A stretch of 64,000 nt of DNA from Paraburkholderia ginsengiterrae (GTDB lineage Bacteria > Pseudomonadota > Gammaproteobacteria > Burkholderiales > Burkholderiaceae). The notes below the pieces were generated by a model. It saw only the letters and a list, made by a program, of their open reading frames with translations. It was not told the DNA's origin and made no database searches. A program made the translations under genes and the position numbers. Where the stretch lies: the NCBI RefSeq assembly GCF_001645125.1, contig NZ_LXKA01000165.1, positions 62,001 to 126,000 on the forward strand, given 5' to 3'. Numbering within the stretch: the stretch's first letter is position 1; the number at the start of each line of letters is the position of its first letter. Shown in pieces: positions 5,198 through 57,546 of this stretch.

Positions 5198-5455
5198 GAG
5201 CTAACCCGCGAGATTAAGAGCGGCGCCTTGCCTTCTTCGAGGAAATGGCATCGAAACACTCCCCGTTATGTTTCGTAAGGCAAAGCTGATGGGCACTGTT
5301 CGAATTAAGCGGTTTCGATTGTATCGCATACAAACTAGATAGTTAACTTCAACAACTGAGGTATTTTGTAGGGATTTCCTGATTTTCTGGTCAGGCGTTC
5401 GCATGCACTCTGCACAGCTTGCGTGACGCCCGGCCCGGTCAGGCAGCGTGAACGT

Positions 5456-7711
5456 TCAGACAGATGACGCCCCCTGAGCAAGCAACGCGATCTGACTGGC
5501 CGACAGCGCGCCGCGGTAGATCCGGAACTCGTCGACGAGGCCGTTGAAATACGGATCCGCTGGAAACTGCGAACGTCCAATCCAGTTCTGCGCTGTCGGA
5601 CCGATGCGCCACGGCGCAAACGGGACGTTGCTCAGGCTGTTCGCTGCAGCGCCGTTGACGTAGAGCGTTAGTGTCGTGCCTGACAGCATGACCGCAACAT
5701 GCGTCCATTGGCCTGTCGGCAATGCCGCCGTGCCGTCGAGCCGATACTCGCCATACGGACCGTTGGTCGTGATCGCAAAGCGCACACAATTGTCCGGGCC
5801 GCCCTTCGGAGACAAGTACAGGTAGCGTCCCGTGCCGGAGCCGAAATCGAACACGCGCTGCCATGCTGCCCCGCCGTTCCAGTACACCCATGCCGCGACC
5901 GTGAAATCCGACACGTCGGCGACGAGGTCTTCGGGCAGGCTCACATAACCGCTCGAGCCGTCCAACAATACGGCGCGGTTCGACTTTCCTGCCGCATGTG
6001 TGACGCCACCGACGAGCGTGCCTGCATGGTTGTTGCCGCTCGAATCAGCGGCTGCGGCGCCGCTGGTTTCGTCGAACGTCAGCCAGGTATGCAACTGCGC
6101 AACTGTGACAGCTGTGGCTTCGGGCGAGTTTGCGCTCTCACCAGACGACGTCTGAGCGCTCACGACGTAGTACCAGGTGCCGGGCGACGGACTGTCGGTG
6201 TACGTCAGCGGATCGGTGACGCCTTGCGCAATGGTCGCGTACGGGCCACCGGATTTTGCCGCGCGCTTCACGTTGTAGCTCGTGCCGTTGGCAACGCCCC
6301 ACCACGACAGCGCGACCTGTCCCGCGCCCGGCCACGCGGTCAGCCCGCTCGGTGCCACGGCCGGCGCAACGGGGTCGCGTGTAAAGGTCAACGTGCCGTA
6401 GCCGAGTTGATCGAAAGCCCCGCTGTCGTTACCGGTAGGGCCGCCTTCCGGTTGGACCTGCACGGCCATCTTCTGTGTCCAGGGCGCGGCCAGTCCCTTC
6501 CGGTTGACGTAGTGGTTGTACACCAGCGCCCAGCACGAACGCAGCGTAGGTTGCGCGTTCGACGAGAGCTGCGTCTGCGTGACGTCCTTGTTGGAGTAGG
6601 TCAGATAAGGCACGGTATAGATAGTCGTGCCGTCCGGCTCATATAGATTGGACTTGGCGACATACTCCGCGCCGGCGAGGAAGCGATTGTTGTCGTAGCC
6701 GTACAGATCGATACCCTGATTCCATGCCATCTCGCAGATCGCGCCACCCAGCGCGATGCCGAGCGTGGTGTGCCCCTGGTCGCGGCCGGTCTCCTGCCAT
6801 TGTCCGAGGTAACCGGGATGCAGATAGTAGACGGCCTGTCTGATCGCGCCGTTGCCGGTGCCAAAGAGGAAGTAGTTGACTGCCTCGTCGAACAGCGAAT
6901 GGTCATCGCACAGAACGCCGATCGCCATGATTGAAGCGATGTTGCATAGGTCCCAGTTGGCCCAGTAATGGGTAATGTCGGTGCCGTTGTGGCCGCTCAG
7001 AAAGGCGATATTGATCGGATAAAAGACGTTCTTCATCATCGACTGGAATGCGGCAAGATTCGCTGCCGACAGGCCGGGGTAAGTCCGCATGATCTCGCCG
7101 ACAATCGCGAACTCGTAGCCGTAGATGCCCGCGGCAAGATCCTGGTTCGTGTCTCCCGTCACCTGCTGCAGCGTCGAAGACCACCCATTCATGATCTTCA
7201 CCGCCGTGTCAGCGTGTGTCGTACTGCCGGTCACCTTCCAGTACAGCGCATTGGCATAGGCCGCTGCGATGTTCTGCATCAGATGCGGATAGCTGCCGCC
7301 GGTCGCAGTGCGCGTGATCACAGCCTCCGCGAGGAGCGTCTGGTCCGCACTCGAATGCCCGTTTGCGATCAGCGCCTGCCAGCCGTCGTACCACGGCGCA
7401 GCCTGCGCGCCGACCTTGGTGGACATCCGGTCGAAATCCGACTGCAGATGCAGTAGGCCGGGATGCACGAAGGCCGCGCTGGTGGAGACGGCGGTCTCAC
7501 CCGTCGCGGCTCGGGCGAGCGCGTCGTTTGCTGCGAGGACCATAGCCGACGCCGCGCGGCTGCTCGCTCCCGCCGAAGCGGCCGGGCTCTCACCTCCGCA
7601 TGCCGAAAGTGCAAGCGCGCCGAGGCTGTACAGGAACGTACGCCGTGAAAGGGTCGTGTTCACGACATCGAATCCGTTGCTTTGCTTGCTCTTCTGCTTG
7701 TTGACCAACAT
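5456..7711 (-). CDS. Alginate-lyase-fold polysaccharide lyase with FnIII and LamG domains (lipoprotein)
   Basis: A 751-residue multidomain exported protein. The leader carries SRRTFLYSLGALALSAC, a twin-arginine motif (R23-R24) followed by a lipobox with Cys38. Residues about 70-400 form an alpha/alpha-toroid of the alginate lyase type, with NWDLCNIASIMAIGV and QETGRDQGHT. The latter loop is typical of lyases annotated as alginate lyase, or PL38-like enzymes acting on glucuronan. A fibronectin type III domain follows (about 450-545), then a LamG/concanavalin-like domain (about 550-740) with the DSSGNNHAGTLVGG opening. The architecture suggests a cell-surface enzyme that binds and cleaves an acidic polysaccharide. 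The start is supported by GGAG just upstream. A LacI-type palindrome lies about 50 bp upstream. Uronic-acid polymer cleavage is likely but the precise substrate is not determinable. Confidence 0.8.
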   Translation of the reverse strand: MLVNKQKSKQSNGFDVVNTTLSRRTFLYSLGALALSACGGESPAASAGASSRAASAMVLAANDALARAATGETAVSTSAAFVHPGLLHLQSDFDRMSTKVGAQAAPWYDGWQALIANGHSSADQTLLAEAVITRTATGGSYPHLMQNIAAAYANALYWKVTGSTTHADTAVKIMNGWSSTLQQVTGDTNQDLAAGIYGYEFAIVGEIMRTYPGLSAANLAAFQSMMKNVFYPINIAFLSGHNGTDITHYWANWDLCNIASIMAIGVLCDDHSLFDEAVNYFLFGTGNGAIRQAVYYLHPGYLGQWQETGRDQGHTTLGIALGGAICEMAWNQGIDLYGYDNNRFLAGAEYVAKSNLYEPDGTTIYTVPYLTYSNKDVTQTQLSSNAQPTLRSCWALVYNHYVNRKGLAAPWTQKMAVQVQPEGGPTGNDSGAFDQLGYGTLTFTRDPVAPAVAPSGLTAWPGAGQVALSWWGVANGTSYNVKRAAKSGGPYATIAQGVTDPLTYTDSPSPGTWYYVVSAQTSSGESANSPEATAVTVAQLHTWLTFDETSGAAAADSSGNNHAGTLVGGVTHAAGKSNRAVLLDGSSGYVSLPEDLVADVSDFTVAAWVYWNGGAAWQRVFDFGSGTGRYLYLSPKGGPDNCVRFAITTNGPYGEYRLDGTAALPTGQWTHVAVMLSGTTLTLYVNGAAANSLSNVPFAPWRIGPTAQNWIGRSQFPADPYFNGLVDEFRIYRGALSASQIALLAQGASSV

Positions 7712-7940: not shown

Positions 7941-8903
7941 TCACCGATCCGGCAGCGGTACTCCCCATGCTGCCGTGACGTTGCCACCTAACCGCCATTC
8001 GCTGAACGGACGGCGCGGCGCAATGAGCGCCGCTAAACGGCGATCCCTGACGCGCGCGTAATACGGCTCGAACCAGCACAACTCGTCCTGAAAGGTCCAT
8101 GGGAACAGATCCTGTTTGACTGGTGTGATCTTCGCAAAGCTTGCGGGGTCCTCGACCGATTCGATCACGAGATTCGCCAAACGGTCGATCGCGCGGTCGT
8201 TTTCGCGGTAGAGGTCAATATTGCGTTGCCGTACCAGTTCAGCCGCAAAAACCAGCGGAATCAATGCGAACGTGTGATAGTGCAGCGCACGGTTGCCGCG
8301 CTTGACTTCCCGCGCCAGCGCACCGTCGGGACCGATATCGCGAATCCCCTCGCGGACGCGCAGAAGTCCCGAGTCGACGAGACTCGCGTTGCCGGTCGCG
8401 CTACCGATTGCGATCAGATCGAGCCCTGCCCAATATACGAGATTGTTGTGCAGATGATTGATCGCTTCCGAATCGCGAGTAGCGATCGCGATTCGCTCGA
8501 GCCAGGGATCGACCGCGTTGAATCGCGCCTGATTAGTCTCGCGGAATTCGCGCGGCATGCGCAGAATGACCATTGCGAAGTCCGTTCCCGCCCACGAACG
8601 TTCGTAGTAGCCCTGATAACCGGAAATATGCCCCATCAACGCATCGGCTTTCGCCCAGCTTTCCAGCAGGTCGAGTGCACATGACCAGTCACCCTTGGCG
8701 GCCGAGCTGTTCAGTCGCGCAACGAAGTCGCGCATGGGCTTCACAGCGCGTGCATAACCCGTTGCGTCATCGTAGTAACCCGGCGGGTCGATTGTTTCCA
8801 CCGGGGCCGGTACCGCGCATGCGTGAGCTGAACGCTCGAAGCCGAAGGCCGCGCTTGCCGCAAGCAGGACAATGAACAACACTCGAACGGATACATGGTG
8901 CAT
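7941..8903 (-). CDS. AlgL-like (PL5) alginate/poly-mannuronate lyase, periplasmic
   Basis: A 320-residue exported protein with a cleavable Sec signal peptide (about 1-28, ending in AHA). The mature part is an all-helical toroid of the PL5 family. HLHNNLVYWAGL corresponds to the NNHxYW segment of AlgL, and KRGNRALHYH to the RGxRALxYHN segment bearing the catalytic Arg/His. The C-terminal third carries the aromatic FQDELCWFEPYYARV. The length is slightly below typical AlgL (about 370). Family members beta-eliminate mannuronate-rich alginate, but divergent ones act on other uronate polymers. The gene follows the mutarotase gene by 25 bp in the same direction and is probably co-transcribed with it. 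No alginate biosynthesis gene is present, so a catabolic rather than secretion-associated role is inferred. Confidence 0.75.
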   Translation of the reverse strand: MHHVSVRVLFIVLLAASAAFGFERSAHACAVPAPVETIDPPGYYDDATGYARAVKPMRDFVARLNSSAAKGDWSCALDLLESWAKADALMGHISGYQGYYERSWAGTDFAMVILRMPREFRETNQARFNAVDPWLERIAIATRDSEAINHLHNNLVYWAGLDLIAIGSATGNASLVDSGLLRVREGIRDIGPDGALAREVKRGNRALHYHTFALIPLVFAAELVRQRNIDLYRENDRAIDRLANLVIESVEDPASFAKITPVKQDLFPWTFQDELCWFEPYYARVRDRRLAALIAPRRPFSEWRLGGNVTAAWGVPLPDR

Positions 8904-8928: not shown

Positions 8929-9267
8929 TTAGAACTGCTGCAAGTCGAATATCCGCTGCATCGGTATCCACTTCTGTCCGGCTGGCGTCCAGGGCGTGGG
9001 AGCCTGGAACTTCCACATCAGTTCCTCCCACTGTCGAACCGCCGTATTGGTTTCTGCGGCATGGGCCATTCTGTCAGCATCGAAAGTGGCGTCGTCCGTT
9101 TCCATGATCATGAATAATCGCGTCCCCAAGCGGTAGATCTCCATACTCAAGACTCCATGCTCGCGTATGTGCGTGACGACATCCGGCCAGACCTCGCGGT
9201 GAAGCTCCTCGTAACGCGCAATCAGACTCGGATCATCTCTCAAATCCAGGGCAAAACAGTACCGCAT
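8929..9267 (-). CDS. rhaM: L-rhamnose/L-fucose mutarotase family protein (COG3254)
   Basis: A 112-residue member of the RhaM family, small dimeric ferredoxin-like proteins that interconvert the alpha and beta anomers of L-sugars. Diagnostic segments are MRYCFALDLRDD, EELHREVWPDV (conserved His), MEIYRLGTRLFM, the MWKFQ stretch and TPWTPAGQKWIPM near the C-terminus. Length is normal. The ATG has AAGGAA 7 nt upstream. Family members act on L-rhamnose, and on L-fucose/L-galactose in organisms with oxidative L-sugar pathways. The neighbours (dehydrogenase, lactonase, LgoD, UxaB, UxaA) favour L-galactose or L-fucose over L-rhamnose, since no rhamnose genes are present. The symbol names the family, not a proven substrate. 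Confidence 0.85.
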   Translation of the reverse strand: MRYCFALDLRDDPSLIARYEELHREVWPDVVTHIREHGVLSMEIYRLGTRLFMIMETDDATFDADRMAHAAETNTAVRQWEELMWKFQAPTPWTPAGQKWIPMQRIFDLQQF

Positions 9268-9412
9268 AGCCGTTTCCTTTCACGAAGCATTCGAATCGAC
9301 AACGAACGGATCGGCGGCAAAGCGTGTCATTTTCAGACTTCGCCTGACGCGAGCCCGGCGAACCGCCTACCGTCATGCCATCGAACTTCCTGAGTCGTCT
9401 GGCATTATCAAA

Positions 9413-9676
9413 TCAATCATGCTGTCCGCTGAATTGCCTTTGCAGCGCGATGATTGCGGGAAGTTGAAAGTCGTGAACATCGGGAGCCGCGTTGCCTCGT
9501 CGGCGGCAGACCTCGGTGGCAAGTTCCAGTGCGCGGGCGCGCGTATCGATCAACAGGGATAGCGCCTCCCACAGCAAGCCTCTCTGCAGCGCGGATAGCT
9601 GAAAAGCTTGCCCGGCGTCGACAACTGCAAGTTCAAACGCTTCAGTATCCATTGGCAATGGTGCCCGACAGTTCAT
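9413..9676 (-). CDS. Small hypothetical protein inside the sugar operon
   Basis: An 87-residue protein that I do not recognise. It is soluble, rich in Ala and Leu and predicted mostly helical (ALQRGLLWEALSLLIDTRARALELATEV). There is no signal peptide, membrane segment or cysteine motif. An AAGGAG box sits 5 nt before the ATG at 9676, which favours that start over a GTG two codons upstream. It lies between uxaA (stop at 9725) and the mutarotase gene, all in the same direction, so it is probably part of the transcript. No function can be assigned. Confidence 0.55.
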   Translation of the reverse strand: MNCRAPLPMDTEAFELAVVDAGQAFQLSALQRGLLWEALSLLIDTRARALELATEVCRRRGNAAPDVHDFQLPAIIALQRQFSGQHD

Positions 9677-9724
9677 AGTCACTCCTTGAGTGCGACGCTC
9701 ATCTTTACCACAAGGCGCTTACCG

Positions 9725-11254
9725 TCACATGACTGCCGCGCCTCGCAGCCACGGCACGAACTCGCGTTCGCCGATGCCGTTTTCCTCGCTGCAAGTCTTG
9801 CCGCCCGAGGCGACGGTCAGCATCAGCTGAAACAGCCGCGCCCCCGCCTCTTCAATACTGAGCGAGCCGTCGACGATCTCCCCGCAGTTGAAGTCCATGT
9901 CCGAACGCATCCGTTCAAAAAGCCCCGTGGTTGTCGCGACCTTGATCGTTGGAACCGGCTTCGAACCAAAGACAGAACCTCGCCCGGTGGTGAAGCAGAT
10001 CAGATTCGCCCCTCCCGCAATTTGTCCGGTTGCGGACACTGGGTCGTAGCCCGGCGTGTCCATGAACACGAGGCCACGTTCGGATACGGGGTCCGCATAG
10101 TCGTACACGGCCTTGAGCGCGGTGCTCCCTCCTTTCGACACCGCGCCCAGCGATTTTTCCAGTATCGTCGTGATACCTCCCGCCTTGTTTCCCGGCGACG
10201 GGTTGTTGTTCATTTCTCCACCCGCATCGCCTGCGTAGTGCTCCCACCACTGTAGCTTCTCCAGCAGCCGATCGGCCACACCGCGCGACGCGGCTCGCGC
10301 CGTCAGCAGGTGTTCGGCACCATAGATCTCCGGCGTCTCGGAGAGTATTGCGGTTCCGCCGTTGCGTACAAGCAGGTCAACGGCTGCACCAAGCGCGGGG
10401 TTAGCGGTGATGCCGGAGTATCCGTCGGAACCGCCGCACTGCAAGCCCAGCTTCAATCGCGCTGCGGGTACTTCCGTGCGGCTCGCGCGGTCGGCCGCGT
10501 CGAGCAGGTCGCGGACGATCACGACCCCGCGGGAGATCGTCTCGCGTACACCGCCCTCTTCCTGTATGACGAGTGTTTTGATCGGACCTGGATTGAGCGG
10601 ACCCAGCAATTCGGCCAGATCGTTCACCTGGTTGACTTCGCAACCGAGTCCAACGAGCAACACGCCTGCGAAGTTCGGGTTGCACGCGTAGCCAACAAGC
10701 GTGCGGCGCAACAATGCGATGCCGTCCCCCGTGGCCGACAGGCCGCAGCCACTGTGGTGCGTGATGGCAACCACGCCGTCGACCCTTCCGTATGCCGCCA
10801 TCGCGTCGCCCTTGAACGCATCCGCGATGGCGTGGCAGACACTCGCCGAACAATTGACGCTGCCGATTACACCGACGTAATTGCGTGTTCCGACCTGGCC
10901 GTCCGCTCGCTCGAACCCGAGGAACGTATCCGAGCGGTCCGCTTCGACGATGCGATACGCCGCATCGTTCAGCAACCGCTCGCTCTGGTAATGTTCTGGC
11001 ATCCCGACGTTATGTACGTGGACATGCTCTCCCGCCGCGATGTCGCACAAAGCAACGCCGATCGTCTGCCGATATTTGACGATGTGCGCTCCACGTGGGA
11101 TATCCCGGGTCGCGAGCTTGTGACCGGCAGGAATGGGAGTCAGGATTCGTAATGGCTGCCCGAGCGCGTCGATCCACCCATCCGCGCTCAATGCGACGAG
11201 CGCCACCGCTACGTTGTCTTCGCCGTCAAGTTTCACGACAGTCTGGTCTTTCAT
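9725..11254 (-). CDS. uxaA: Altronate dehydratase family protein (UxaA)
   Basis: A 509-residue UxaA-type dehydratase, an iron-dependent lyase converting D-altronate to 2-keto-3-deoxy-D-gluconate. Residues about 1-90 form the SAF domain (IPAGHKLATRDIPRGAHIVKY). The large domain includes FERADGQVGTRNYVGVI, the VAITHHSGCGLS segment, KLGLQCGGSDGYSGITANPA and DTPGYDPVSATGQIAGGANL. Together these carry the Cys/His positions of the family. Length is close to E. coli UxaA (495). It starts 14 nt after the stop of the uxaB-like gene. With that gene and the LgoD-like gene it completes L-galactonate to KDG. UxaA homologues occur in L-fucose loci of some bacteria, so L-fuconate dehydration is an alternative. 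Confidence 0.88.
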   Translation of the reverse strand: MKDQTVVKLDGEDNVAVALVALSADGWIDALGQPLRILTPIPAGHKLATRDIPRGAHIVKYRQTIGVALCDIAAGEHVHVHNVGMPEHYQSERLLNDAAYRIVEADRSDTFLGFERADGQVGTRNYVGVIGSVNCSASVCHAIADAFKGDAMAAYGRVDGVVAITHHSGCGLSATGDGIALLRRTLVGYACNPNFAGVLLVGLGCEVNQVNDLAELLGPLNPGPIKTLVIQEEGGVRETISRGVVIVRDLLDAADRASRTEVPAARLKLGLQCGGSDGYSGITANPALGAAVDLLVRNGGTAILSETPEIYGAEHLLTARAASRGVADRLLEKLQWWEHYAGDAGGEMNNNPSPGNKAGGITTILEKSLGAVSKGGSTALKAVYDYADPVSERGLVFMDTPGYDPVSATGQIAGGANLICFTTGRGSVFGSKPVPTIKVATTTGLFERMRSDMDFNCGEIVDGSLSIEEAGARLFQLMLTVASGGKTCSEENGIGEREFVPWLRGAAVM

Positions 11255-11268
11255 GATGCCTGCGCCCC

Positions 11269-12411
11269 TTATTTGGTCTGCAGCAGCCCGTGCCTCGCCA
11301 GGGTGCTCCGCAGACGCGGCTGATCCGCTTGCAATGAGAGCGAATCCGCGAGTTCGATCAGCGGCAATATCCGCCTCCTGACCTTTTCGACATGGTTCTG
11401 CGCGATATCCGCGATTCGATGATTGAGATACGGGTTGAGAAACCGCTCACGCACGCTCGCGATATAACACTCGGCGCGACTACGTAAATCCATCGCGGCG
11501 AATACCTCAAGGACTTCTTCCTGCCACACTGCCTCGATTCCATCACGCAGCCGTACATCGTTCATTGCGTCAAGAACCGTTTCGGACGAGGCGCGGCGCT
11601 CGTTGAGCCACTGATCGGCCAGCCAGGTATGGGCCAGATTGAGGAAGAACAGTTTCAACCGCTCATAACTGCGTAAATCGTCCGTGAGAATGATGTTCTC
11701 GTGTACGCATGGAAGTTGCATGCCGTCGCGGCGTTCAATTGCCCACAGCGCATAGGGTTCGGCTACCGCGCCGACCGGATCGATCGGCTCGGATACGATC
11801 CGGTCGACGAGGGAGTTCACCCAGACGCAGTCCTCCTGCAAATAGCCGACAAAACTCTGAGGAAGCGTCCATCGTTGAGCCAGACCGAGCACGATGTCTC
11901 GAAGCGTGTCGCCGTTGTTCGCAACGAGTTCGCACGGAAGAATTGACACGCCGGCACCGGGCCTCTCGCGCCAGCGTGCATGAAGCAACGTCAGCAGTTT
12001 GGCGGGATAACTGTGCGGCGCCTGCGCAGTGTTCGCCAGTAGGTCCGCCGAATCACGCGCGTCGAGCCGATAGCCTGTGTCACCGGTGTTCGACACGATT
12101 ACGCGGACGTCTTCGATCGTCGCGCGTCGAACTGCAGCCCAGTCTTGATCGGCGGTCCATGCCGTGCGTATGGCATGGCATTCGATCGTTTTGTCCACGA
12201 CCGAGCCGCCTTCCACGCCGCGAATTCTCACGGGGTAACTGCCCGCTTGCGAGAGCGCAGCGACACGCGCGCGGCTGGATGGATTCGCGGTCGTCTGCAC
12301 CACACTGATGCCGCCGATCGCATCTCCACGCTCGAGTGCCTGAGACACGAACAGCGCGACGTGAGCCAGCAGGAATCGGCTCGTGCCAAACTGAAGAATA
12401 GGTTCGCTCAT
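11269..12411 (-). CDS. uxaB: Tagaturonate reductase-like protein (UxaB/UxuB, mannitol dehydrogenase family)
   Basis: A 380-residue NAD(P)-dependent reductase of the polyol-specific long-chain dehydrogenase family. The N-terminal nucleotide fold begins with ILQFGTSRFLLAHV. The catalytic region has the family Lys...Asn..His arrangement in ERLKLFFLNLAHTWLADQWL. E. coli UxaB and UxuB are about 485 residues, so this is a compact form roughly 100 residues shorter, yet both core domains are present. I chose the ATG at 12411, just before the conserved FGTSRF. A longer frame would start inside the upstream gene's end. It lies between the LgoD-like and uxaA genes, which predicts D-tagaturonate to D-altronate reduction. 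UxuB-type fructuronate reduction is less likely because no mannonate dehydratase is nearby. Confidence 0.78.
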   Translation of the reverse strand: MSEPILQFGTSRFLLAHVALFVSQALERGDAIGGISVVQTTANPSSRARVAALSQAGSYPVRIRGVEGGSVVDKTIECHAIRTAWTADQDWAAVRRATIEDVRVIVSNTGDTGYRLDARDSADLLANTAQAPHSYPAKLLTLLHARWRERPGAGVSILPCELVANNGDTLRDIVLGLAQRWTLPQSFVGYLQEDCVWVNSLVDRIVSEPIDPVGAVAEPYALWAIERRDGMQLPCVHENIILTDDLRSYERLKLFFLNLAHTWLADQWLNERRASSETVLDAMNDVRLRDGIEAVWQEEVLEVFAAMDLRSRAECYIASVRERFLNPYLNHRIADIAQNHVEKVRRRILPLIELADSLSLQADQPRLRSTLARHGLLQTK

Positions 12412-12443
12412 CCTGTCCGTCCTGATTGGTCCGCCACCACCGG

Positions 12444-13454
12444 TCAGCACTCCACCAGCGCCTTCACGACGGTCTGCCCCGGTTCGAGCAGACGCGGAAA
12501 CGCATCCGGCACTTCCGCAAGCTGCATGCGGTGCGTGTTGAGTGCCTGGTCGGGAATGTGTCCCGCGCGCATCGCCTCGAGCACGGTTTCGAAGTCGATG
12601 GTCGTGGCGTTGCGGCTCGCGAGCAGCGTGGTTTCGCGCTTATGAAACTCGGGATCGGAGAACGTCACCTGGCCCGGAACGATCGAGATGAGCGTGTATT
12701 TGCCGCCATGCGCGACAAAGCCAAAGCCGCGGTTCATCGCGTCAATGTTCCCCGTCGCATCGAAGACGGCATCGAAGAACTCGCCGTCTGTCAGCGACGC
12801 GAGTTGCTCCGTATCATCCGTGCCGACCGCGACGGCTGCATGCACACCCAGTTGCGACTCGCAGAATGCGAGGCGGTCGGCACGCGTGTCGAGACAGGTC
12901 ACGGTGGCGCCGCGCAGCTTCGCGAAGATCATCGCGGCCATCCCGATCGGACCCGCTCCGACCACCAGCACCCGTTGTCCCGCCAGGACATCTGCGCGTC
13001 GCACCGCATGCGCCCCGATGGCGAGGAATTCGAGCATCGCGGCCTGATCGAGTGTCACGCCTTCAGCCTTGTGCACGAACTGGGCCGGCACGCTGAGATA
13101 CTCGGTGAGCGCGCCGTCGCGATGCACGCCCAGCACCTTGATGCTGACGCAACAGTTCGTTTTACCCTGGCGGCACGCAACGCAATGCCCGCACGACAAA
13201 TATGGCATGACGTAGACGCCATCGCCGACGGCAAGCCCGGAGTCGGGTTCTGTTTCTACGACCACCGCGGAAAGCTCGTGGCCCATCACGCGCGGGTATT
13301 CCAGATAGGGCTGATTGCCGGTAAAAATGTGAAGGTCGGTGCCGCAAATCCCGACGCGACTGACTCGCAACAGCACTTCGCCGTTTCCGCGCGCGGGTAT
13401 GTCGCGTTGTTGCGCGCGCAAGACGCCCGGGGATTCGCAAATCACGCTAAGCAT
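12444..13454 (-). CDS. lgoD: L-galactonate 5-dehydrogenase-like zinc alcohol dehydrogenase
   Basis: A 336-residue medium-chain zinc dehydrogenase. The catalytic zinc site is CGTDLH with GHE (GNQPYLEYPRVMGHE). The structural zinc cysteines are in SCGHCVACRQGKTNCC, and the Rossmann motif is VVGAGPIG. Several stretches match what I recall of E. coli LgoD/YjjN closely: GNQPxxxYPRVxGHE, KTNCC, xVLGVHRDGALTEYLSVP and FSDPEFHKRETTLLASRNAT. That enzyme oxidises L-galactonate at C5 to D-tagaturonate using NAD. L-gulonate 5-dehydrogenases are close relatives. The neighbouring uxaA and uxaB homologues accept exactly the tagaturonate branch, which favours L-galactonate. AAGGAA lies 7 nt before the ATG. 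The substrate is inferred from similarity plus context. Confidence 0.8.
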   Translation of the reverse strand: MLSVICESPGVLRAQQRDIPARGNGEVLLRVSRVGICGTDLHIFTGNQPYLEYPRVMGHELSAVVVETEPDSGLAVGDGVYVMPYLSCGHCVACRQGKTNCCVSIKVLGVHRDGALTEYLSVPAQFVHKAEGVTLDQAAMLEFLAIGAHAVRRADVLAGQRVLVVGAGPIGMAAMIFAKLRGATVTCLDTRADRLAFCESQLGVHAAVAVGTDDTEQLASLTDGEFFDAVFDATGNIDAMNRGFGFVAHGGKYTLISIVPGQVTFSDPEFHKRETTLLASRNATTIDFETVLEAMRAGHIPDQALNTHRMQLAEVPDAFPRLLEPGQTVVKALVEC

Positions 13455-13489
13455 GGTGGTTTCCTTTTGATCAAGTTAAGTGCGGCGGG

Positions 13490-14350
13490 TCATACGCCGA
13501 TGCGATAGAAACGGCATGCATTGCCACCAAACACGTCGGGGAGTGCCGCTGCGGCAAAAAGACGCTCGCAGTCGTCTTCGCACGCGGACAGCCACTCGCC
13601 ATAATCACCGCGGATTGCTGCGAGGCGCAGCACGGGCCAGTCGCTGCCCCACATCAATCGTTGCGGGCCAAATAGATCGGCGAGGATGCGGACATACGGA
13701 TGAAGGCGCGCGCGAACCGCTTCGACGTCGGCTGCGAAACCTGCTTCGGTCCATAGCCCGGAAAGCTTGCAATGCACATTGGGCAGGTGCGCGAGGCGCG
13801 TCATGGCCGAATGCCAGGGCTCTCTTTCGTCCGTCGCGATGTGGGGTTTCGCCGCATGATCAATGACGATCGGCAAATCGGGGTAACGTCGTGCAAACGC
13901 GTACAGCGAGTCGAGATGACGTGGCATGACCAACGCGTCGAAGCGAAGATCGTGCTCAGTCATCGCCGCAATCGCGCCGTCGAGAGCCGGGTCATCGATC
14001 CACGTATCGTCGGCCAGATCCTGAAGCATCGGCCGTAGAGCGCGAGCCTTCGGATGCGCAGCGAATGCCGCGATCCTGGCCGCGGCATCCGCGGCCTTCA
14101 GATCGACCCAGCCGACAACGGCGAGCACGGTCCCGGTTTCATCGGCGAGGTCGAGCAAATAGCGCGTGTCTTCGGCGGTGGGTAGTGACTGCACAAGTAC
14201 GGTGCCGTCGATGCGGCCCGCTTCGAGTTCCGGTGCCAGATCGCCGGGGCCGAAATCACGGTAAATCGGGCTCAGTTCGCGGGGAGGCCAGTGGCCCGCA
14301 CGCTCGCTGATTCGCCAATAGTGCTGGTGAGCATCGATACGTGGCGTCAC
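13490..14350 (-). CDS. L-fucono/L-galactono-lactonase, COG3618 amidohydrolase
   Basis: A 286-residue amidohydrolase-superfamily protein hydrolysing a sugar lactone. The HxH metal motif is at the N-terminus (IDAHQHYW, His8 and His10). The conserved HAAKPH lies in mid-protein, KLSGLW follows, and the C-terminal Asp sits in LMWGSDWPV. COG3618 members include characterised L-fucono-1,5-lactonases that also take L-galactono-lactones, and L-rhamnono-lactonases. I place the start at the GTG of 14350, which overlaps the TGA of the preceding aldo/keto reductase as GTGA. That gives the normal family length and puts HxH near the start. An in-frame upstream extension lies inside the previous gene and is low-complexity Arg/Ala. 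The overlap implies translational coupling with the sugar dehydrogenase, whose lactone product it would open. Confidence 0.82.
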   Translation of the reverse strand: MTPRIDAHQHYWRISERAGHWPPRELSPIYRDFGPGDLAPELEAGRIDGTVLVQSLPTAEDTRYLLDLADETGTVLAVVGWVDLKAADAAARIAAFAAHPKARALRPMLQDLADDTWIDDPALDGAIAAMTEHDLRFDALVMPRHLDSLYAFARRYPDLPIVIDHAAKPHIATDEREPWHSAMTRLAHLPNVHCKLSGLWTEAGFAADVEAVRARLHPYVRILADLFGPQRLMWGSDWPVLRLAAIRGDYGEWLSACEDDCERLFAAAALPDVFGGNACRFYRIGV

Positions 14351-15363
14351 GCGCCCCCCTCGGGTACCGGCGCATTTGCCGCAATCAGCCCTTCGTTGCT
14401 GAGCGCGGCCCAGAAGTCGGCTGGCACGTGCTGCTCGAGCCACGCGATGTTCTGCTGCAATTGGGCGACACTGCGTGCGCCCACCACGCATGAAACGACG
14501 GCAGGATGTGCGAACGGAAATTGCAACGCAGCCGCCGGAAGGGGAACGTCAAAGCGCTCGCACAGCGCGGACAACCTCTGGACCTTCTTGACGACTTCGG
14601 CAGGCGCGTCCGCGTAATTGAACTTGCCATTGCCCGCAAGCACACCTGAATTGAACACGCCACCTGCGACGATAGCCGTCCCCACGCGCGCGCAGTGATC
14701 GAGCAGGGGTTGCAGCGCTGTCTGTTCCAGTAACGTGTAGCGACCCGCGAGCAGGATCGCGTCAAGCGGCGCCTCATTCATCGCATCGACCGCGATTTCC
14801 CACTCGTTGACGCCAAGGCCGATCGCGCGCACCTCACCACTCTGGCGCAGTTCAGCCAACGCGCGCAATCCGCCGCCCGCAACCAGTTGATCCCAGAAGT
14901 GAGGGTGGCGATCGCCATGTGTCATGGCGCCGATGTCGTGCACATAGAGAATATCGATCCGCGACGTCCCGAGCCGCTGCTGGCTATCCTCGTACGAGCG
15001 CATGACGCCACTGTAGCTGTAGTCGAAAACTGGCCGGAAAGGAAGCGGTTCGGCCCAGCCATCATCGCCGGGTCGCACGCTCGCGTCGGGCCGCATCAGG
15101 CGGCCCACTTTAGAACTCAAAGTGAATGCATCACGCTCGCGCAGCGCGAGTGCGTGCCCCACGCGCCGCTCGGAGAGCGTGTAGCCATAGTACGGGGCGG
15201 TATCGAAGTAGCGCACGCCCGCGGACCATGCCGCATCGACAAGCGCCCTCGCGTCGGCCGATGACATGGGACGGTAGAGGCCGCCAAGCTGGGAACAACC
15301 CAGACCGAGGGCAGTCAACTTCAGCCCGCTGCGAGGCAAGGCGCGCATTTCATGAGCGTTCAT
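14347..15363 (-). CDS. L-fucose/L-galactose 1-dehydrogenase-like aldo/keto reductase
   Basis: A 338-residue TIM-barrel aldo/keto reductase of the L-fucose (D-threo-aldose) and L-galactose dehydrogenase group. The catalytic tetrad is visible: Asp and Tyr in RYFDTAPYYGYTLSERRVG, Lys in TLSSKVGR, His in DILYVHDIG. The cofactor end shows CVVGARSVAQLQQNI. The family oxidises the anomeric carbon of L-fucose or L-galactose to the lactone with NAD(P), and the lactonase is encoded immediately downstream with a 4-bp overlap. The ATG at 15363 is chosen; an in-frame TTG five codons earlier and an ATG five codons later are possible, and no strong Shine-Dalgarno decides. Pyridoxal 4-dehydrogenase belongs to the same subfamily and is a less likely alternative here. 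Confidence 0.8.
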   Translation of the reverse strand: MNAHEMRALPRSGLKLTALGLGCSQLGGLYRPMSSADARALVDAAWSAGVRYFDTAPYYGYTLSERRVGHALALRERDAFTLSSKVGRLMRPDASVRPGDDGWAEPLPFRPVFDYSYSGVMRSYEDSQQRLGTSRIDILYVHDIGAMTHGDRHPHFWDQLVAGGGLRALAELRQSGEVRAIGLGVNEWEIAVDAMNEAPLDAILLAGRYTLLEQTALQPLLDHCARVGTAIVAGGVFNSGVLAGNGKFNYADAPAEVVKKVQRLSALCERFDVPLPAAALQFPFAHPAVVSCVVGARSVAQLQQNIAWLEQHVPADFWAALSNEGLIAANAPVPEGGA

Positions 15364-15393
15364 AAACCAGGGGTGCAATCGCGAAGAAATATA

Positions 15394-15457
15394 GGTTTCC
15401 GGACGAAACCGTGAAACGGACCTGCATCGATCCGGCGTAACATCGCCGCAGGTCCGT
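15394..15457 (-). terminator. Two stem-loops between the binding-protein gene and the catabolic genes
   Basis: Right after the stop of the binding-protein gene, arms ACGGACCTGC (15416-15425) and GCAGGTCCGT (15448-15457) form a perfect 10-bp stem. Within the loop a second short stem (GGCG/CGCC) can form. A further hairpin, GGTTTC (15394-15399) with GAAACC (15405-15410), follows. No strong U-tract is present, so complete termination is doubtful. Partial termination or protection of the upstream transporter mRNA from 3' exonucleases is more likely, which would set higher transporter than enzyme expression. Confidence 0.6.
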
Positions 15458-15464
15458 GGACTCG

Positions 15465-16412
15465 TCAGTAGAGGACGTTCTTTGCTTCCTGGGAATCGAG
15501 GTTCTGCTTGTCGACCATGACGACGCCCGTATCGACCTGCTTCGCGACCGGTTTGTGCTCGATGACGTTCACCACGGTCTGAATACCCTTGTATCCCATC
15601 TGATAGGACCCCTGAACGGCGATCGCCTGGATCGTGCCGTCGCGCGCGAAGTCCTGCAGGTCCTGGTTGCCGTCGAAGCCTATGGCCACCAGTTTTCCTG
15701 CCTTCCCAGACTGCTTGAGTGCGCGGCCCATCCCCACGGCGGTGGGTTCATTGGCGCCGAAAATACCCTTCAGGTCGGGATTGGCAGAAAGCACGTCGGT
15801 CGTCTGATTCAACGCGGTAGCCATCTGCGACTGCGAATAGTACGGCCCGACAATTTGCAGCTTCGAGTGGGCAGCGATGTACTTGCGGAAGCCGCCAACA
15901 CGCCCGATTTCCGACCCAGCGCCAGGCACGTAGGACATGACGGCGATCTTGCCCGTCTGACCGACGCGATCGATCAGCGCCTTCGCGCACAGTTCCCCGG
16001 CTTTCTCGTTGTCGGTGGACAGGAACGACTGGTAGTACTGCTTGCCTGCATCCGAAAGTGCCGAGTCGATCAGCACGACCGGAATGTGCGCCTCCCACGC
16101 TTTCTTGATGGCCGGCACGAGGGCATCAGGATCGGACGGCGCGAGCACGATGCCCGCGACGTGCCGGTTCACCGCGTTCTCGACCATATTGACTTCGTCG
16201 GCGACGGCCGATTCAGCAGCCGGTCCCTGGAAAGTCATCGTATAGCCCTTCGCCTCGCCGAGCGCGCCATTCGCGCCTTTCTGCACGTTTTGCCAGTAAT
16301 TCGAATTGACCGTCTTGACGATCACTGCGATCTCGCCGCCTGCCGCATACGCCCCCGTCGTGAACATCGTGCAAAGCAGTGCCGATACCGCCAGTAATGG
16401 GAACTTCTTCAT
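15465..16412 (-). CDS. Periplasmic sugar-binding protein of an ABC importer (RbsB-like)
   Basis: A 315-residue periplasmic binding protein of the pentose/hexose (type I, RbsB-like) fold. A Sec signal peptide occupies residues 1-23, ending in AYA. The mature chain begins with IAVIVKTVNSNYWQNVQKGA, a hinge-ligand segment where aromatic residues stack on sugars. Conserved interior motifs are GIVLAPSDPDALVPAI, PVVLIDSAL, IGRVGGF, FGANEPTAVGMGRAL and AIGFDGNQDLQDFARDG. An AGGAG box lies 8 nt before the ATG. It is the third gene of the transporter, after the permease. The neighbouring enzymes predict an L-sugar ligand (L-galactose or L-fucose), but ligand identity cannot be read from the sequence. 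Confidence 0.92.
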   Translation of the reverse strand: MKKFPLLAVSALLCTMFTTGAYAAGGEIAVIVKTVNSNYWQNVQKGANGALGEAKGYTMTFQGPAAESAVADEVNMVENAVNRHVAGIVLAPSDPDALVPAIKKAWEAHIPVVLIDSALSDAGKQYYQSFLSTDNEKAGELCAKALIDRVGQTGKIAVMSYVPGAGSEIGRVGGFRKYIAAHSKLQIVGPYYSQSQMATALNQTTDVLSANPDLKGIFGANEPTAVGMGRALKQSGKAGKLVAIGFDGNQDLQDFARDGTIQAIAVQGSYQMGYKGIQTVVNVIEHKPVAKQVDTGVVMVDKQNLDSQEAKNVLY

Positions 16413-16449
16413 GTCTCGCTCCTATGTCGCGTGGTTAAACTTCTTGTGG

Positions 16450-17481
16450 TCACAATTTCCGGCTTCGCAACTGGTCGATCCAGACGGTGCCCAGAATGAC
16501 GACACCGATAATGATCTGCTGAATGAAACTGGATACCCCATTCATGTTCAGACCGTTGCGAAGAACGCCGATCACGAACGCGCCGATCGCCGTGCCCGAG
16601 ATCGCGCCCACGCCGCCCATCAAGGACGTGCCGCCGATCACCGCGCTCGCGATCGCATCGAGTTCGTACATGACGCCTTCGTTGGGCTGGCCGGTCACGA
16701 GCCGGGACATCAGCACACATCCCGTCACACCGGCCAGCACACCCGAGAGCACGTAAGTGAAAAGCTTCACGCCCTGAACGTTGACGCCGGAAAGTCGTGC
16801 TGCCTCCGCATTCGAGCCGACAGCGTGGATGTGACGGCCGAGCGAAGTCTTCGAGAGCAGCACTGAACCCGCGATGAACAGCACGATCATGATGACGACG
16901 GGGTATGGAATACCGGGAAAGGTCGTGTCCGGAAAACCATCAGAACCGATACGGGAGAGGCGAAACAGCGCGCCGTTGCCAAGCGCGCCAAACGCATCGC
17001 CGAGGTCGGAGACAGGACGTGCCCCGGTGATCTCCAGCGCAAGGCCTCGTGCGACCAGCATCATGCCGAGCGTCGCGATGAATGGCGGCAAGCCCATGCG
17101 CGTCACGCAGATGCCGTTGACGAAACCGCACAGGCCGCCCACCGAGATTCCACCGAGCATGGCAACCGGCACCGGTATGCCGGCTTTGACCAGCAGAGCC
17201 GCCGACACCCCCGCAAGCGCGAGCACCGAGCCCACGGAAAGGTCGATGCCGCCCGTGATGATCACGCAGGTGGCGGCGACGCCAAGATACGCGATGGAGG
17301 TCACTTGCAAGCTGACGGTCATCATGTTGCCGACCGAGAAGAAAGCCGTGCTCGTGATCGAGAACGCAATCACAAGTGCTACCAGGCTGCCCAATGCCGC
17401 GAACTTCTGGATGAGCTCGCGCCGCCGCTGACGCGCCGTCCGTTCCACGGCATGGGTCCGATCCGATGTCATTTCAAGCAT
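16450..17481 (-). CDS. Sugar ABC transporter permease (RbsC-like)
   Basis: A 343-residue inner-membrane permease with about eight to ten hydrophobic helices. Family signatures are GGIDLSVGSVLALAGV, the FIATLGMMLVARGLAL segment, VGSNAEAARLSGVNV (the coupling region contacting the ATPase) and SAVIGGTSLMGGVGAISGTAIGA. The ATG at 17481 overlaps the end of the ATPase gene (stop 17474), indicating translational coupling. An in-frame ATG at 17472 is also possible. It forms the membrane channel with the ATPase encoded upstream and the binding protein encoded 37 bp downstream. The sugar is inferred to be the substrate of the linked L-galactose/L-fucose enzymes. Confidence 0.9.
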   Translation of the reverse strand: MLEMTSDRTHAVERTARQRRRELIQKFAALGSLVALVIAFSITSTAFFSVGNMMTVSLQVTSIAYLGVAATCVIITGGIDLSVGSVLALAGVSAALLVKAGIPVPVAMLGGISVGGLCGFVNGICVTRMGLPPFIATLGMMLVARGLALEITGARPVSDLGDAFGALGNGALFRLSRIGSDGFPDTTFPGIPYPVVIMIVLFIAGSVLLSKTSLGRHIHAVGSNAEAARLSGVNVQGVKLFTYVLSGVLAGVTGCVLMSRLVTGQPNEGVMYELDAIASAVIGGTSLMGGVGAISGTAIGAFVIGVLRNGLNMNGVSSFIQQIIIGVVILGTVWIDQLRSRKL

Positions 17482-19024
17482 GTGTGCGCCCCGAAGCAAA
17501 GTGCATGATTTCCTCCTGACTGGTCTGTTTCGTTTCGAGAATCGCCGTCATCCGGCCCTCGTGAAATACGGCAATTCGATCCGTCATCCCAAGCAGCTCC
17601 GGCAACTCCGAACTGATCAGCACGACACCGACGCCGTCTGCCGCGAGCCTGTCCATCAGCCCGTAAATGGCGAACTTGGCTCCCACGTCGATACCGCGCG
17701 TGGGCTCGTCGAAGAACAGGATCTTCGATCCGCGGTAGAGCCACTTGCTGATCACGACCTTCTGCTGGTTGCCGCCGGACAGGTTCCGTACGATCTGGTC
17801 GACCGATGGTGTGCGGATAGCCAGTTCCTGCACGTAGCGCCGCGCAACCGCAGCCTCTTCGCTAAAACGAAGGAAACCGGCGCGCGACGAGACGCCCCGC
17901 ACGTTCGCAAGCGTGATGTTCGCGGCGACAGGCATAGCAAGCGCGAGACCGTCCTGCTTGCGGTCTTCCGACAGGTACGCGATGCCGTGACGGATGGCTT
18001 CGCGCGGCGAGCGTATCGTCACCGGCTGGCCGTGAAGCGATATCGTGCCGCTGTCGAGCCGGTCGGCACCGAAGATCGCGCGGGCGACTTCCGTACGGCC
18101 TGCACCCATGAGGCCGGCGAAGCCGAGGATCTCGCCTTTGCGAAGCTCGAATGAAACCGGACCGAACACGCCTGCCCGACTGAGGTCGCGCGCGCTCAGC
18201 AGTACGGTGCCGGTGGGCCGCGATTGCCGCGGCGGATAGGCGTCTTCGAGCGGGCGTCCCACCATGCGGGCGACGATGTCGTTCACGCTCAGCGCGGCAA
18301 AGTCGTCGGTGGAAATATGGCGGCCATCTCGCAGCACTGTCACTCGGTCGACGATTTGAGCCATTTCGTCGAGGCGGTGCGAGATGTAAAGGATCGCCAC
18401 GCCTGCCGCTCGCAACTCCTTGATGATGCGAAAGAGCTGGACCGTTTCCGATTCGGTGAGCGAGGACGTCGGTTCGTCCATGATCAGAACGTCGGCGTCA
18501 AGCGACAGCGCCTTCGCGATTTCGACCATTTGCTGCTGCGCGATGGACAGTGCTCCGACCGGCGTCGTCGGGGCCACGTCCAGGCCAACCCGTGCGAGAC
18601 AACGTGCTGCGTCGGCGTTGAGCCTGCGTGAGTCGACAAACGGCCCGCGTTTGGGCTCACGCGCGAGGTACAGGTTTTCCGCCACCGTCAGGTGCGGTAC
18701 GAGGTTGAGCTCCTGATGAATGATCGCGATCCCGGCCGCCTGTGCCTCGGACGTCGAATGAAACCGCACCGGCTCGCCACGATAACGAATGGTGCCTTCG
18801 TCGGGCGAGTACTGACCGCTGATGATCTTCATCAGTGTGGACTTACCTGCCCCATTTTCACCGCAGACGGCGTGGACCTCCCCGCGCCGCAGATCGAGGT
18901 GAATGCCGTCGAGGGCGATGACGCCCGGAAAGCGCTTGCCGATGCCCGCGAGGCGCAGGATTTCCCGGTCTGCGAACTCGTGGCGCTCTACAGCAAGGCT
19001 GGACGGACTGTGAAGCATTGTCAT
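17474..19024 (-). CDS. Sugar ABC transporter ATPase with two nucleotide-binding domains (RbsA/MglA-like)
   Basis: A 516-residue cytoplasmic ATPase with tandem ABC cassettes, as usual for ribose/galactose-type importers. The first domain has Walker A GENGAGKST, an ABC signature region LSIAQQQMVEIAKAL and Walker B DVLIMDEPTSSL. The second has the degenerate GLMGAGRTE Walker A, the signature LSGGNQQKVVISKWL and Walker B ILFFDEPTRGID. I placed the start at the ATG of 19024, preceded by CAGGAG 5 nt upstream. The frame stays open another 41 codons upstream, but that extension would run through the promoter. It is the first gene of the minus-strand operon and is transcribed from a promoter in the gap shared with gntR. 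Confidence 0.93.
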   Translation of the reverse strand: MTMLHSPSSLAVERHEFADREILRLAGIGKRFPGVIALDGIHLDLRRGEVHAVCGENGAGKSTLMKIISGQYSPDEGTIRYRGEPVRFHSTSEAQAAGIAIIHQELNLVPHLTVAENLYLAREPKRGPFVDSRRLNADAARCLARVGLDVAPTTPVGALSIAQQQMVEIAKALSLDADVLIMDEPTSSLTESETVQLFRIIKELRAAGVAILYISHRLDEMAQIVDRVTVLRDGRHISTDDFAALSVNDIVARMVGRPLEDAYPPRQSRPTGTVLLSARDLSRAGVFGPVSFELRKGEILGFAGLMGAGRTEVARAIFGADRLDSGTISLHGQPVTIRSPREAIRHGIAYLSEDRKQDGLALAMPVAANITLANVRGVSSRAGFLRFSEEAAVARRYVQELAIRTPSVDQIVRNLSGGNQQKVVISKWLYRGSKILFFDEPTRGIDVGAKFAIYGLMDRLAADGVGVVLISSELPELLGMTDRIAVFHEGRMTAILETKQTSQEEIMHFASGRTHA

Positions 19025-19073
19025 TGCGTCTCCTGGGAGGAACGGCCGATCTGGCGCTGCGCGCTGGTCAGTC

Positions 19074-19137
19074 CAATTTGTTTGAATTAAACAGAAATTT
19101 CCACAATTGGTCAAGCCAATATGTAATTTACAAATTG
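19074..19137. promoter_or_regulatory. Promoter of the sugar operon with an operator over the -35 box
   Basis: On the minus strand, TTGACC (19114-19109) and TTTAAT (19091-19086) are separated by exactly 17 bp, a good sigma-70 promoter for the transporter operon. The -35 box lies inside the perfect inverted repeat ATTGG-TCAAG-CCAAT (19106-19120). An outer repeat, CAATTTG (19074-19080) and CAAATTG (19131-19137), flanks the whole region. The placement suggests repression by the divergent FCD-type GntR regulator. The match to a GntR site is by form and position, not by a known consensus for this protein. Confidence 0.65.
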
Positions 19138-19261
19138 ATCTTACCAAGACAACCGAACCTCGGAACGGGCATAGATCGGCCGTTGATCGGGCCTTCCCGT
19201 GGTTATGCTAGAGTTGGCAAACGGCTCTTGATGCCGCCCATGATTGGCAACGACCTGCAAT

Positions 19262-19963
19262 ATGAAATCGACAGAACCAAAGCGGCTTTACCAATCTGTT
19301 GCCGCCCAGATCCTCGCGCTGATTCGGCAGGAGGAATATCCGGCTGGGGAGCGGCTACCGCCTGAGCGTGAACTGGCCTTAAAGCTGGGCGTGTCACGTC
19401 CCTCGCTGCGCGAGGCACTCATCGCGCTGGAGATCGGCGGCCAGATAGAGATCCGGATGGGGTCGGGCGTTTATGTGCGCGATGCAAGCGCAGACGACGT
19501 GAGCGCGATCGGCGCGCTTGGCGACAGTCCGTCGGAGCTCATGCAGGCGCGTGCTGCTATAGAAGGCAGCGTGGTCGTGCTTGCTACGGCGCGCATGACG
19601 GCGGCCACGGGGGATCGTCTGCGCCGCATGATCGAACGCATGCGCAGGCTGGCGGCAGCGGGCAAATCACCCGTTGAAGCGGACCGGCAATTCCACATGC
19701 TGATTGCGGAAACCGCCGGTAACTCGGTGCTCAGCCGCTATGTTGGAGAACTGTTCGATAGTCGCCACGATCCCATCGCGGCGGCCATGCGTGGCTACAC
19801 GGAAAGCGCGCAAACCTGGACCGCAGCGGTACGGGAACACGAGGACGTACTAAAGGCGCTGCAGGCCGGCGACCCGATCGCCGCGCAAACAGCGATGCGC
19901 GCGCATTTAAGAGCTTCCGAAGAGCGATGGATAAGCGGCGCGTTGAAGCAACACACGGATTGA
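19262..19963 (+). CDS. GntR-family (FadR/FCD subfamily) transcriptional regulator
   Basis: A 233-residue regulator with an N-terminal winged helix (about residues 8-75: GERLPPERELALKLGVSRPSLREALIALE, then the GSGVYV wing). The C-terminal FCD ligand domain (about 90-225) has metal-ligand-like residues in DRQFHMLIAETAGN and REHEDVLKAL. FCD regulators commonly sense sugar acids such as hexuronates and aldonates and repress adjacent catabolic genes. It is transcribed divergently from the sugar transporter/enzyme operon. I favour the ATG at 19262; a TTG six codons upstream also opens the frame. The predicted effector is an intermediate such as L-galactonate, D-tagaturonate or D-altronate, by inference. 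Confidence 0.9.
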   Translation: MKSTEPKRLYQSVAAQILALIRQEEYPAGERLPPERELALKLGVSRPSLREALIALEIGGQIEIRMGSGVYVRDASADDVSAIGALGDSPSELMQARAAIEGSVVVLATARMTAATGDRLRRMIERMRRLAAAGKSPVEADRQFHMLIAETAGNSVLSRYVGELFDSRHDPIAAAMRGYTESAQTWTAAVREHEDVLKALQAGDPIAAQTAMRAHLRASEERWISGALKQHTD

Positions 19964-48822: not shown

Positions 48823-48852
48823 CAGCTTGCCGTCGTGCTGCTCGCCGCGCAG

Positions 48853-48855
48853 CTA
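48853..48855 (-). other. In-frame TAG inside the EAL signature
   Basis: The minus strand reads GFEA-TAG-LRGEQHDGKLVPPAVLFAP. Intact EAL proteins typically read GFEALLRG at this point. A single change TTG (Leu) to TAG accounts for it. Frame is conserved on both sides. The catalytic Glu of the EAL motif lies two codons before the stop. Confidence 0.9.
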
Positions 48856-50070: not shown

Positions 50071-50121
50071 ATTGATAGTTATCAGGCTGGCTCCGATCAC
50101 TCTGCCCTTGGTTATCGGCAA

Positions 50122-50953: not shown

Positions 50954-50980
50954 ACTGGTCATGGATAAGACGGCGGCACT

Positions 50981-54965: not shown

Positions 54966-54968
54966 TTT

Positions 54969-57536: not shown

Positions 57537-57546
57537 CAGGACTGAT

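Follow-up and report, generated by a model that had tools for sequence, protein, structure and literature searches.

An operon of Paraburkholderia ginsengiterrae with a predicted role in L-galactose catabolism

Which sugar is handled by a catabolic operon with its own importer in Paraburkholderia ginsengiterrae is the question raised by positions 8929-19963 of the 64-kb stretch of DNA analysed here (64,000 nucleotides, referred to below as the window), which comes from a genome of 8.5 Mb. The stretch holds a minus-strand operon and a divergent regulator gene of the GntR/FCD type, and all genes named below are open reading frames (ORFs) at the coordinates given. An earlier interpretation made from the letters of the window (the sequence-only reading) had proposed that the operon takes L-galactose to 2-keto-3-deoxy-D-gluconate (KDG) and that this combination of genes was little described. 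On sequence, catabolism of L-galactose to KDG is the best-supported reading of the operon, with an estimated probability of about 0.77; the claim of novelty was not upheld.

In order of transcription, the minus strand encodes the ATPase (17474-19024), permease (16450-17499) and periplasmic binding protein (15465-16412) of a sugar importer, an aldo-keto reductase (AKR; 14347-15378), a COG3618-type lactonase (13490-14350), an LgoD-like zinc-dependent dehydrogenase (12444-13454), a short UxaB-like reductase (11269-12450), a UxaA/GarD superfamily dehydratase (9725-11254), an ORF of 87 amino acids (aa; 9413-9676) and a RhaM-type mutarotase (8929-9267). The regulator gene lies on the plus strand (19262-19963). 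Apart from the 87-aa ORF, which it had overlooked, the sequence-only reading had named this same gene set, and the family matches were far above chance. The importer is of the RbsABC type (CUT2). Its RbsA/AraG-type ATPase has two ATP-binding cassette (ABC) stretches (Pfam ABC_tran, 7e-57; AraG and RbsA families below curated cut-offs), the permease matched BPD_transp_2 (6e-46), and the RbsB/AlsB-like binding protein matched Peripla_BP_4 (2e-57); the best named NCBIfam models for the importer were those for allose, ribose and rhamnose, all below cut-off. The remaining products were matched by Aldo_ket_red (AKR, 2e-45), Amidohydro_2 (lactonase, 3e-43), ADH_N (LgoD-like, 6e-28), Mannitol_dh and Mannitol_dh_C (UxaB-like, 4e-15 and 1e-16), GD_AH_C (5e-101), GD_AH_second and SAF (dehydratase), rhaM (5e-31, with the YiiL_rotase model far below its cut-off), and GntR and FCD (regulator).

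The AKR stop and the lactonase start share the letters GTGA, so that the coupling claimed earlier is real and the lactonase is the 286-aa product with a GTG start rather than a 333-aa ORF, and the first possible start of the UxaB-like gene is overlapped by the LgoD-like stop. The most likely start of the ATPase is the ATG at 19024 (516 aa, with AGGAG ahead of the ATG), since the longer ORF, which begins at a TTG, would reach the promoter; for the regulator, the ATG at 19262 is the probable start.

From the families and comparisons described here we infer the following substrates and reaction directions. L-galactose would be imported by the RbsABC-type system and its anomers equilibrated by the RhaM-type protein, after which the AKR would oxidise C1 to give L-galactono-1,5-lactone and the lactonase would open this to L-galactonate. 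The LgoD-like enzyme would then oxidise C5 to give D-tagaturonate, the UxaB-like enzyme would reduce D-tagaturonate to D-altronate, and the UxaA-family enzyme would dehydrate D-altronate to KDG, which would join Entner-Doudoroff enzymes encoded elsewhere. This reading is preferred because four lines of evidence agree: the similarity to LgoD, the existence of a distinct L-fucose-type cluster elsewhere in the genome, an LgoT-like carrier in related loci, and the grouping of AKRs by gene context.

Comparison with Escherichia coli K-12 placed the LgoD-like protein nearest LgoD (42% identity over 335 aa), ahead of RspB (32%) and IdnD (30%); it carries zinc-ligand motifs, which presumably act as such. 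The UxaB-like protein was closer to UxaB (33%) than to UxuB (27%), matched the tagaturonate reductase family at 1e-66 (below cut-off), and has a K-x4-N-x2-H motif that we take to be catalytic. An LgoD-type dehydrogenase and a tagaturonate reductase are thus both predicted, each with a higher identity to its E. coli namesake than to the paralogues compared. The UxaB-like protein falls 90 residues short of E. coli UxaB; a broken, truncated gene was considered and ruled out, because its homologues in the 15 relatives where they were placed are comparably short (376-422 aa, first-start ORFs). In the dehydratase, four cysteines are common to UxaA, GarD and the enzyme of the L-fucose-type cluster, and the protein scored below the cut-off of TIGR03248. 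Such cysteines bind iron in this family (PMC6336799). The locus combines LgoD-like, UxaB-type and UxaA-type enzymes with an importer, as in lgo-type systems, the importer being an ABC system and not an LgoT-like carrier of the major facilitator superfamily (MFS). The same steps from L-galactonate to KDG are carried out by E. coli lgoTRD with uxaA and uxaB (UxaA identity, 35%), although in E. coli the genes are scattered, lgoD has no adjoining sugar dehydrogenase or lactonase, and uptake is by a galactonate:H+ symporter.

For the front end of the route, the top five PDB hits for the AKR (E values from 1e-31 to 2e-26) each bear the name L-galactose dehydrogenase, which is evidence at the level of the family, and the D-Y-K-H motifs, presumably catalytic, are present. 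Together with the Aldo_ket_red match, these relatives point to an AKR-type L-galactose dehydrogenase at family level. The best PDB match of the lactonase was 4dlf (1e-42), and its best NCBIfam model was that of L-fucono-1,5-lactonase, at 206 bits against a cut-off of 400.

One set of related loci came from a scan of genome contigs with the lactonase as query, and 80 of the 571 loci found were kept; Bacteroides vulgatus, Luteolibacter and Acidovorax avenae are not represented in the 80. The nearest named relative of the operon was Paraburkholderia lacunae S27, with identities of 93-97% for the regulator through to the dehydratase and of 88% for RhaM. Other named loci came from several Burkholderia species, Trinickia and Leeia, with variant layouts in Massilia, Duganella and Agrobacterium vitis. 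Quick trees of the AKR and the lactonase, with SH-aLRT support only and with long branches flagged, were compared with gene context, the context labels being assigned by tblastn thresholds across the whole locus. The AKR tree held 107 rows from fetched loci, 104 of them different, since some records were fetched twice. All 46 rows labelled LgoD+UxaB fell inside one clade of 55 rows (SH-aLRT 94); seven of the 46 also had a match to the FAA hydrolase (FAH) in the locus, and one of these also to the short-chain dehydrogenase/reductase (SDR). Rows labelled SDR+FAH fell mostly (26 of 30) inside another clade, of 29 rows. The LgoD+UxaB label needed six changes on the AKR tree, against a mean of 34.9 after shuffling, and five changes for 29 rows on the lactonase tree, against a shuffled mean of 25. 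When the window was added to the AKR tree, its AKR joined a starred set that, counting this AKR, has 24 rows, every one labelled LgoD+UxaB.

The second cluster in the same genome (L107) contains importer genes, a dehydratase with a small SAF-domain and a large UxaA-superfamily subunit, an AKR, a lactonase, an SDR and an FAA hydrolase; LgoD and UxaB were not matched in it by tblastn. Its AKR and lactonase are 53-55% and 49-51% identical to those of the window, and its importer is likewise of the RbsABC type, so the two loci have paralogous front ends and differ in what follows, the window having LgoD, UxaB and a one-piece UxaA where L107 has the two-gene dehydratase, SDR and FAA hydrolase. The layout of L107 appears to be that of a non-phosphorylating L-fucose pathway; in Paraburkholderia mimosarum, a two-gene dehydratase of the UxaA superfamily was assigned to L-fuconate from gene context (PMC6336799). 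The genes of the L-fucose pathway (L-fuconate dehydratase of the FucD or two-gene UxaA type, SDR and FAH) are absent from the window's operon and were found in L107. The earlier claim that the 2-keto-3-deoxy-L-fuconate branch is missing accordingly holds for the operon but not for the genome, and the presence of two paralogous front ends speaks against the one in the window serving only L-fucose.

A search of 145 genomes of the genus gave an LgoD-like protein at E < 1e-100 in 68, the window's own among them; of 399 genomes drawn from the order, 7 (in 6 of 158 genera, again counting the window) had one at E < 1e-90. For counts of gene content, 68 of the 75 places in the genus outside the window were fetched; the seven left out comprise six with matches of 62-68% identity and one partial match of 72%. 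Genes were placed by tblastn, as longest-ORF calling misplaced several genes in the G+C-rich relatives. The importer occurs together with the AKR in 32 of the 68 loci, with UxaB in 27, RhaM in 13 and the regulator in all 32, and the binding protein is 79-97% identical across the 52 fetched genus loci that have an importer. Fourteen further loci lack such an importer and have UxaB and/or UxaA, and two have none of these. Thirteen of the 14 carry, between UxaB and UxaA, a carrier that is 32-36% identical to part of E. coli LgoT; the one family-checked matched MFS_1 and the D-galactonate transporter subfamily. With the carrier enclosed by LgoD, UxaB and UxaA, these loci resemble an L-galactonate operon. 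The operon is conserved among relatives; the window's full set (importer, AKR, lactonase, UxaB, UxaA and RhaM) occurs together in only 4 of the 68 loci.

Three other explanations were weighed against L-galactose catabolism. L-fucose might be the main substrate, passing through the same steps by way of 6-deoxy intermediates, or the system might serve both sugars; this is unlikely, although it is the strongest of the three. L-fucose is likewise a substrate in the AKR and lactonase families, the model closest to the lactonase is the L-fucono-1,5-lactonase named above, and an AKR of the same superfamily from P. mimosarum takes D-arabinose, L-fucose and L-galactose alike (PMC6336799). Against this, L107 already provides the genome with an L-fucose-type cluster, complete with importer, AKR and lactonase and without LgoD or UxaB, related loci with LgoD and UxaB have an LgoT-like carrier, and the L-galactose dehydrogenase LguA of Luteolibacter had no activity on L-fucose (PMC12632266). 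That enzyme preferred L-galactose about 40-fold (PMC12632266), which also speaks against a different sugar (of the D-arabinose, L-glucose or L-gulose type) as the real substrate. Such a sugar is very improbable: AKRs of this superfamily are promiscuous (PMC6336799), LguA and LguD accept L-glucose and L-gluconate as well (PMC12632266), and YjjN/LgoD of E. coli also serves in L-gulonate quantification, going by the title of a cited paper, but no C4 epimerase of the LguG type is among the families of the operon, the reductase is nearer to UxaB than to UxuB, and the dehydratase belongs to the UxaA/GarD superfamily.

The remaining explanation, which we hold to be somewhat less probable than L-fucose, is that an aldonate or lactone system, importing L-galactonate or L-galactono-lactone, forms the core of the locus, the AKR and lactonase being a later and dispensable addition. 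It draws on the 20 of 68 loci in which importer and LgoD are present (UxaB in 19) without AKR or lactonase, and on the 13 in which LgoD, UxaB, UxaA and an LgoT-like carrier occur without an importer of the window's type. RbsB-type binding proteins usually bind pyranose sugars, however, and in the window the AKR and lactonase overlap as GTGA. Four of the 20 loci without AKR moreover retain a RhaM-type match, in one case a fragment, which suggests that an aldose is imported there.

Several observations weigh against catabolism of L-galactose as proposed here. The 20 AKR-less importer loci (L110, L113, L117, L119 and L120 among them) all have LgoD and the regulator, and none has the lactonase or UxaA, while the lactonase occurs in only 10 and UxaA in only 16 of the 32 loci with both importer and AKR. 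An AKR of at least 60% identity was found in none of the 20 genomes with AKR-less loci, one of these (G008) had no AKR at E < 1e-40 in the genome, and a full-length UxaA of at least 50% identity was not found in three of the five such genomes tested (G007, G008 and G014). The AKR clade of 55 rows also takes in eight rows with LgoD only and one other, which is why the LgoD+UxaB label still needs six changes on the AKR tree. The breadth of the P. mimosarum AKR counts here as well. In the window itself, the dehydratase is no nearer to UxaA (34.8%) than to GarD (37.6%), the best match to KdgK in the genome is only 33% identical and lies away from the operon, and no enzyme of the operon reached an NCBIfam cut-off, for which reason names are used at family level only.

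The AKR-less loci may be part of a series. In 19 of the 20 genomes concerned, an AKR at 51-56% identity is present, by identity of the L-fucose type, and a lactonase adjoins it in all four genomes checked. An L-fucose-type AKR is also present in all nine covered genomes with importer and AKR loci, so that finding it does not prove a substitute role. A tentative view, which we consider rather less probable than not, is that the locus belongs to a modular Paraburkholderia series with three states: LgoD-UxaB-LgoT-like-UxaA for L-galactonate, an importer-only form (ABC-LgoD-UxaB), and the full L-galactose form of the window. The AKR-less form would depend on another locus for oxidising the sugar, with the L-fucose operon as the probable source of AKR and lactonase, and part of the series would have the 87-aa accessory protein. 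A conserved replacement gene in the AKR-less loci was sought and rejected, as, RhaM apart, no ORF of at least 110 aa within 8 kb downstream was common to more than 3 of the 20. Individual loci showed further variation. In L117 the ATPase and binding protein matches are each split in two pieces, and in L116 (11626-12072) the lactonase match that lies between AKR and LgoD covers only about half of the protein, as though this gene were undergoing loss. In A. vitis (L032 and L035) the same kind of importer, AKR and lactonase accompany an LgoD relative of 51% identity, with UxaB and UxaA unmatched, and in L032 a gene for an enolase-superfamily dehydratase lies between lactonase and LgoD, perhaps with dehydration preceding oxidation. 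The Leeia oryzae locus (L036) has a chemoreceptor gene between binding protein and LgoD (4167-5837) and, directly after UxaA, a PfkB kinase (12870-13817) nearest KDG/KDGal kinases, below cut-off.

The combination of modules had been called little described, and this did not hold. In Luteolibacter sp. LG18 the lgu cluster, with lguH outside it, takes L-galactose to pyruvate and D-glyceraldehyde 3-phosphate, with lguG used in addition for L-glucose, and disruption mutants other than those of lguG and lguF were impaired on L-galactose (PMC12632266, 2025). By description, lguABCDEF resembles the window in clustering an AKR-type L-galactose dehydrogenase, L-galactonate dehydrogenase, tagaturonate reductase and altronate dehydratase leading to KDG; it differs in that no importer or lactonase is named, the 2-keto-3-deoxy-6-phosphogluconate aldolase (lguE) lies inside and the KDG kinase (lguH) outside, and the regulator is annotated as an activator, Btr, in place of GntR/FCD. 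A BLAST search by its authors found no organism with only the L-galactose set of close orthologues (PMC12632266), so that an operon of the present kind in Burkholderiaceae falls outside the coverage of that paper. Earlier still, an L-galactose route was reported for BVU_0219 and BVU_0222 of Bacteroides vulgatus (Hobbs et al. 2014, as cited in PMC12632266). By description, the likeness lies in an L-galactose dehydrogenase and an L-galactonate dehydrogenase. A lactonase of B. vulgatus, BVU_0220, was reportedly described by Hobbs and co-workers as well. ACAV_RS08155 of Acidovorax avenae was tied to L-galactose metabolism as unpublished data (PMC6336799), and the paper that followed this up (Watanabe et al. 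2019, Mol Microbiol), which also precedes the Luteolibacter work, by its title concerns enzymes of the D-altronate dehydratase family in a pathway for L-galactose. The likeness of the A. avenae locus, by description, is that of a UxaA/GarD-family dehydratase linked to L-galactose. The pathway of Watanabe and co-workers is said to include C5 epimerisation of L-galactonate to D-altronate by two dehydrogenases. In Halomonas and Chromohalobacter, lgoD/uxaA/uxaB loci occur with TRAP carriers (PMC5507952). A literature search for L-galactose with Burkholderia or Paraburkholderia, covering open-licence papers only and thus no proof of absence, found no description of this operon. The route itself is already known from other bacteria, and the operon is a conserved additional member and not a new pathway.

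Control of the operon was considered from the gap between regulator and ATPase, which holds a promoter-like TTGACC-N17-TTTAAT. The palindrome ATTGGCTTGACCAAT (19106-19120) lies over the -35 TTGACC as a candidate operator, and a weaker, imperfect copy, ATTGGACTGACCAG (19064-19077), lies directly downstream of the -10. The pattern TTGG-N3..7-CCAA occurs three times in the 64-kb window; in exact form it was present in the regulator-ATPase gap of 40 of the 58 loci examined and absent from 18, the loci being kin, so that the 40 are not independent events. The regulator is 36% identical to E. coli UxuR. From this we infer repression and its inducer: the GntR/FCD protein would act as a repressor at the palindrome over the promoter, and an acid of the pathway would release it.

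The 87-aa ORF has AAGGAG ahead of its ATG and matched no Pfam or NCBIfam family. By tblastn it was matched in 17 fetched operon loci (42-83% identity; two from the same species), each time just downstream of UxaA or UxaB; weaker relatives occur elsewhere, with matches in 29 of 143 genus genomes, operon copies included. Next to the RhaM gene, 7941-8903 (minus strand) encodes an AlgL-type poly(beta-D-mannuronate) lyase, above the NCBIfam cut-off, and 5456-7711 (minus strand) a larger protein with alginate lyase and Laminin_G_3 domains. Alginate breakdown also ends in KDG. The alginate lyases were nevertheless ruled out as part of the system, AlgL being unmatched in 100 loci of one set and 96 of another; many of these loci are short or of other layouts, but the 21-kb P. 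lacunae locus (L021), with an operon 88-97% identical, was included. Farther along the window, cellulose synthesis genes (encoding BcsR-like, BcsB, GH8 and BcsC proteins) lie on the plus strand at 47740-63482, preceded on the minus strand by genes for EAL and GGDEF proteins.

If the modular series is true, two sugar pathways would share a front end in trans, and genes for lactonase, AKR and dehydratase would have been gained and lost piecemeal. The operon gives a simple rule of context for annotation, in which LgoD and UxaB beside the AKR and lactonase mark a probable L-galactose cluster and SDR and FAH mark an L-fucose cluster, despite the common family names of the enzymes. L-galactose is found in plant cell walls and is a precursor of vitamin C. 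Through the operon, a rare-sugar route that has received little study would reach many Burkholderiaceae, together with an importer and a regulator as candidates for dedicated components, and the operon provides a candidate L-galactose-responsive promoter and importer.

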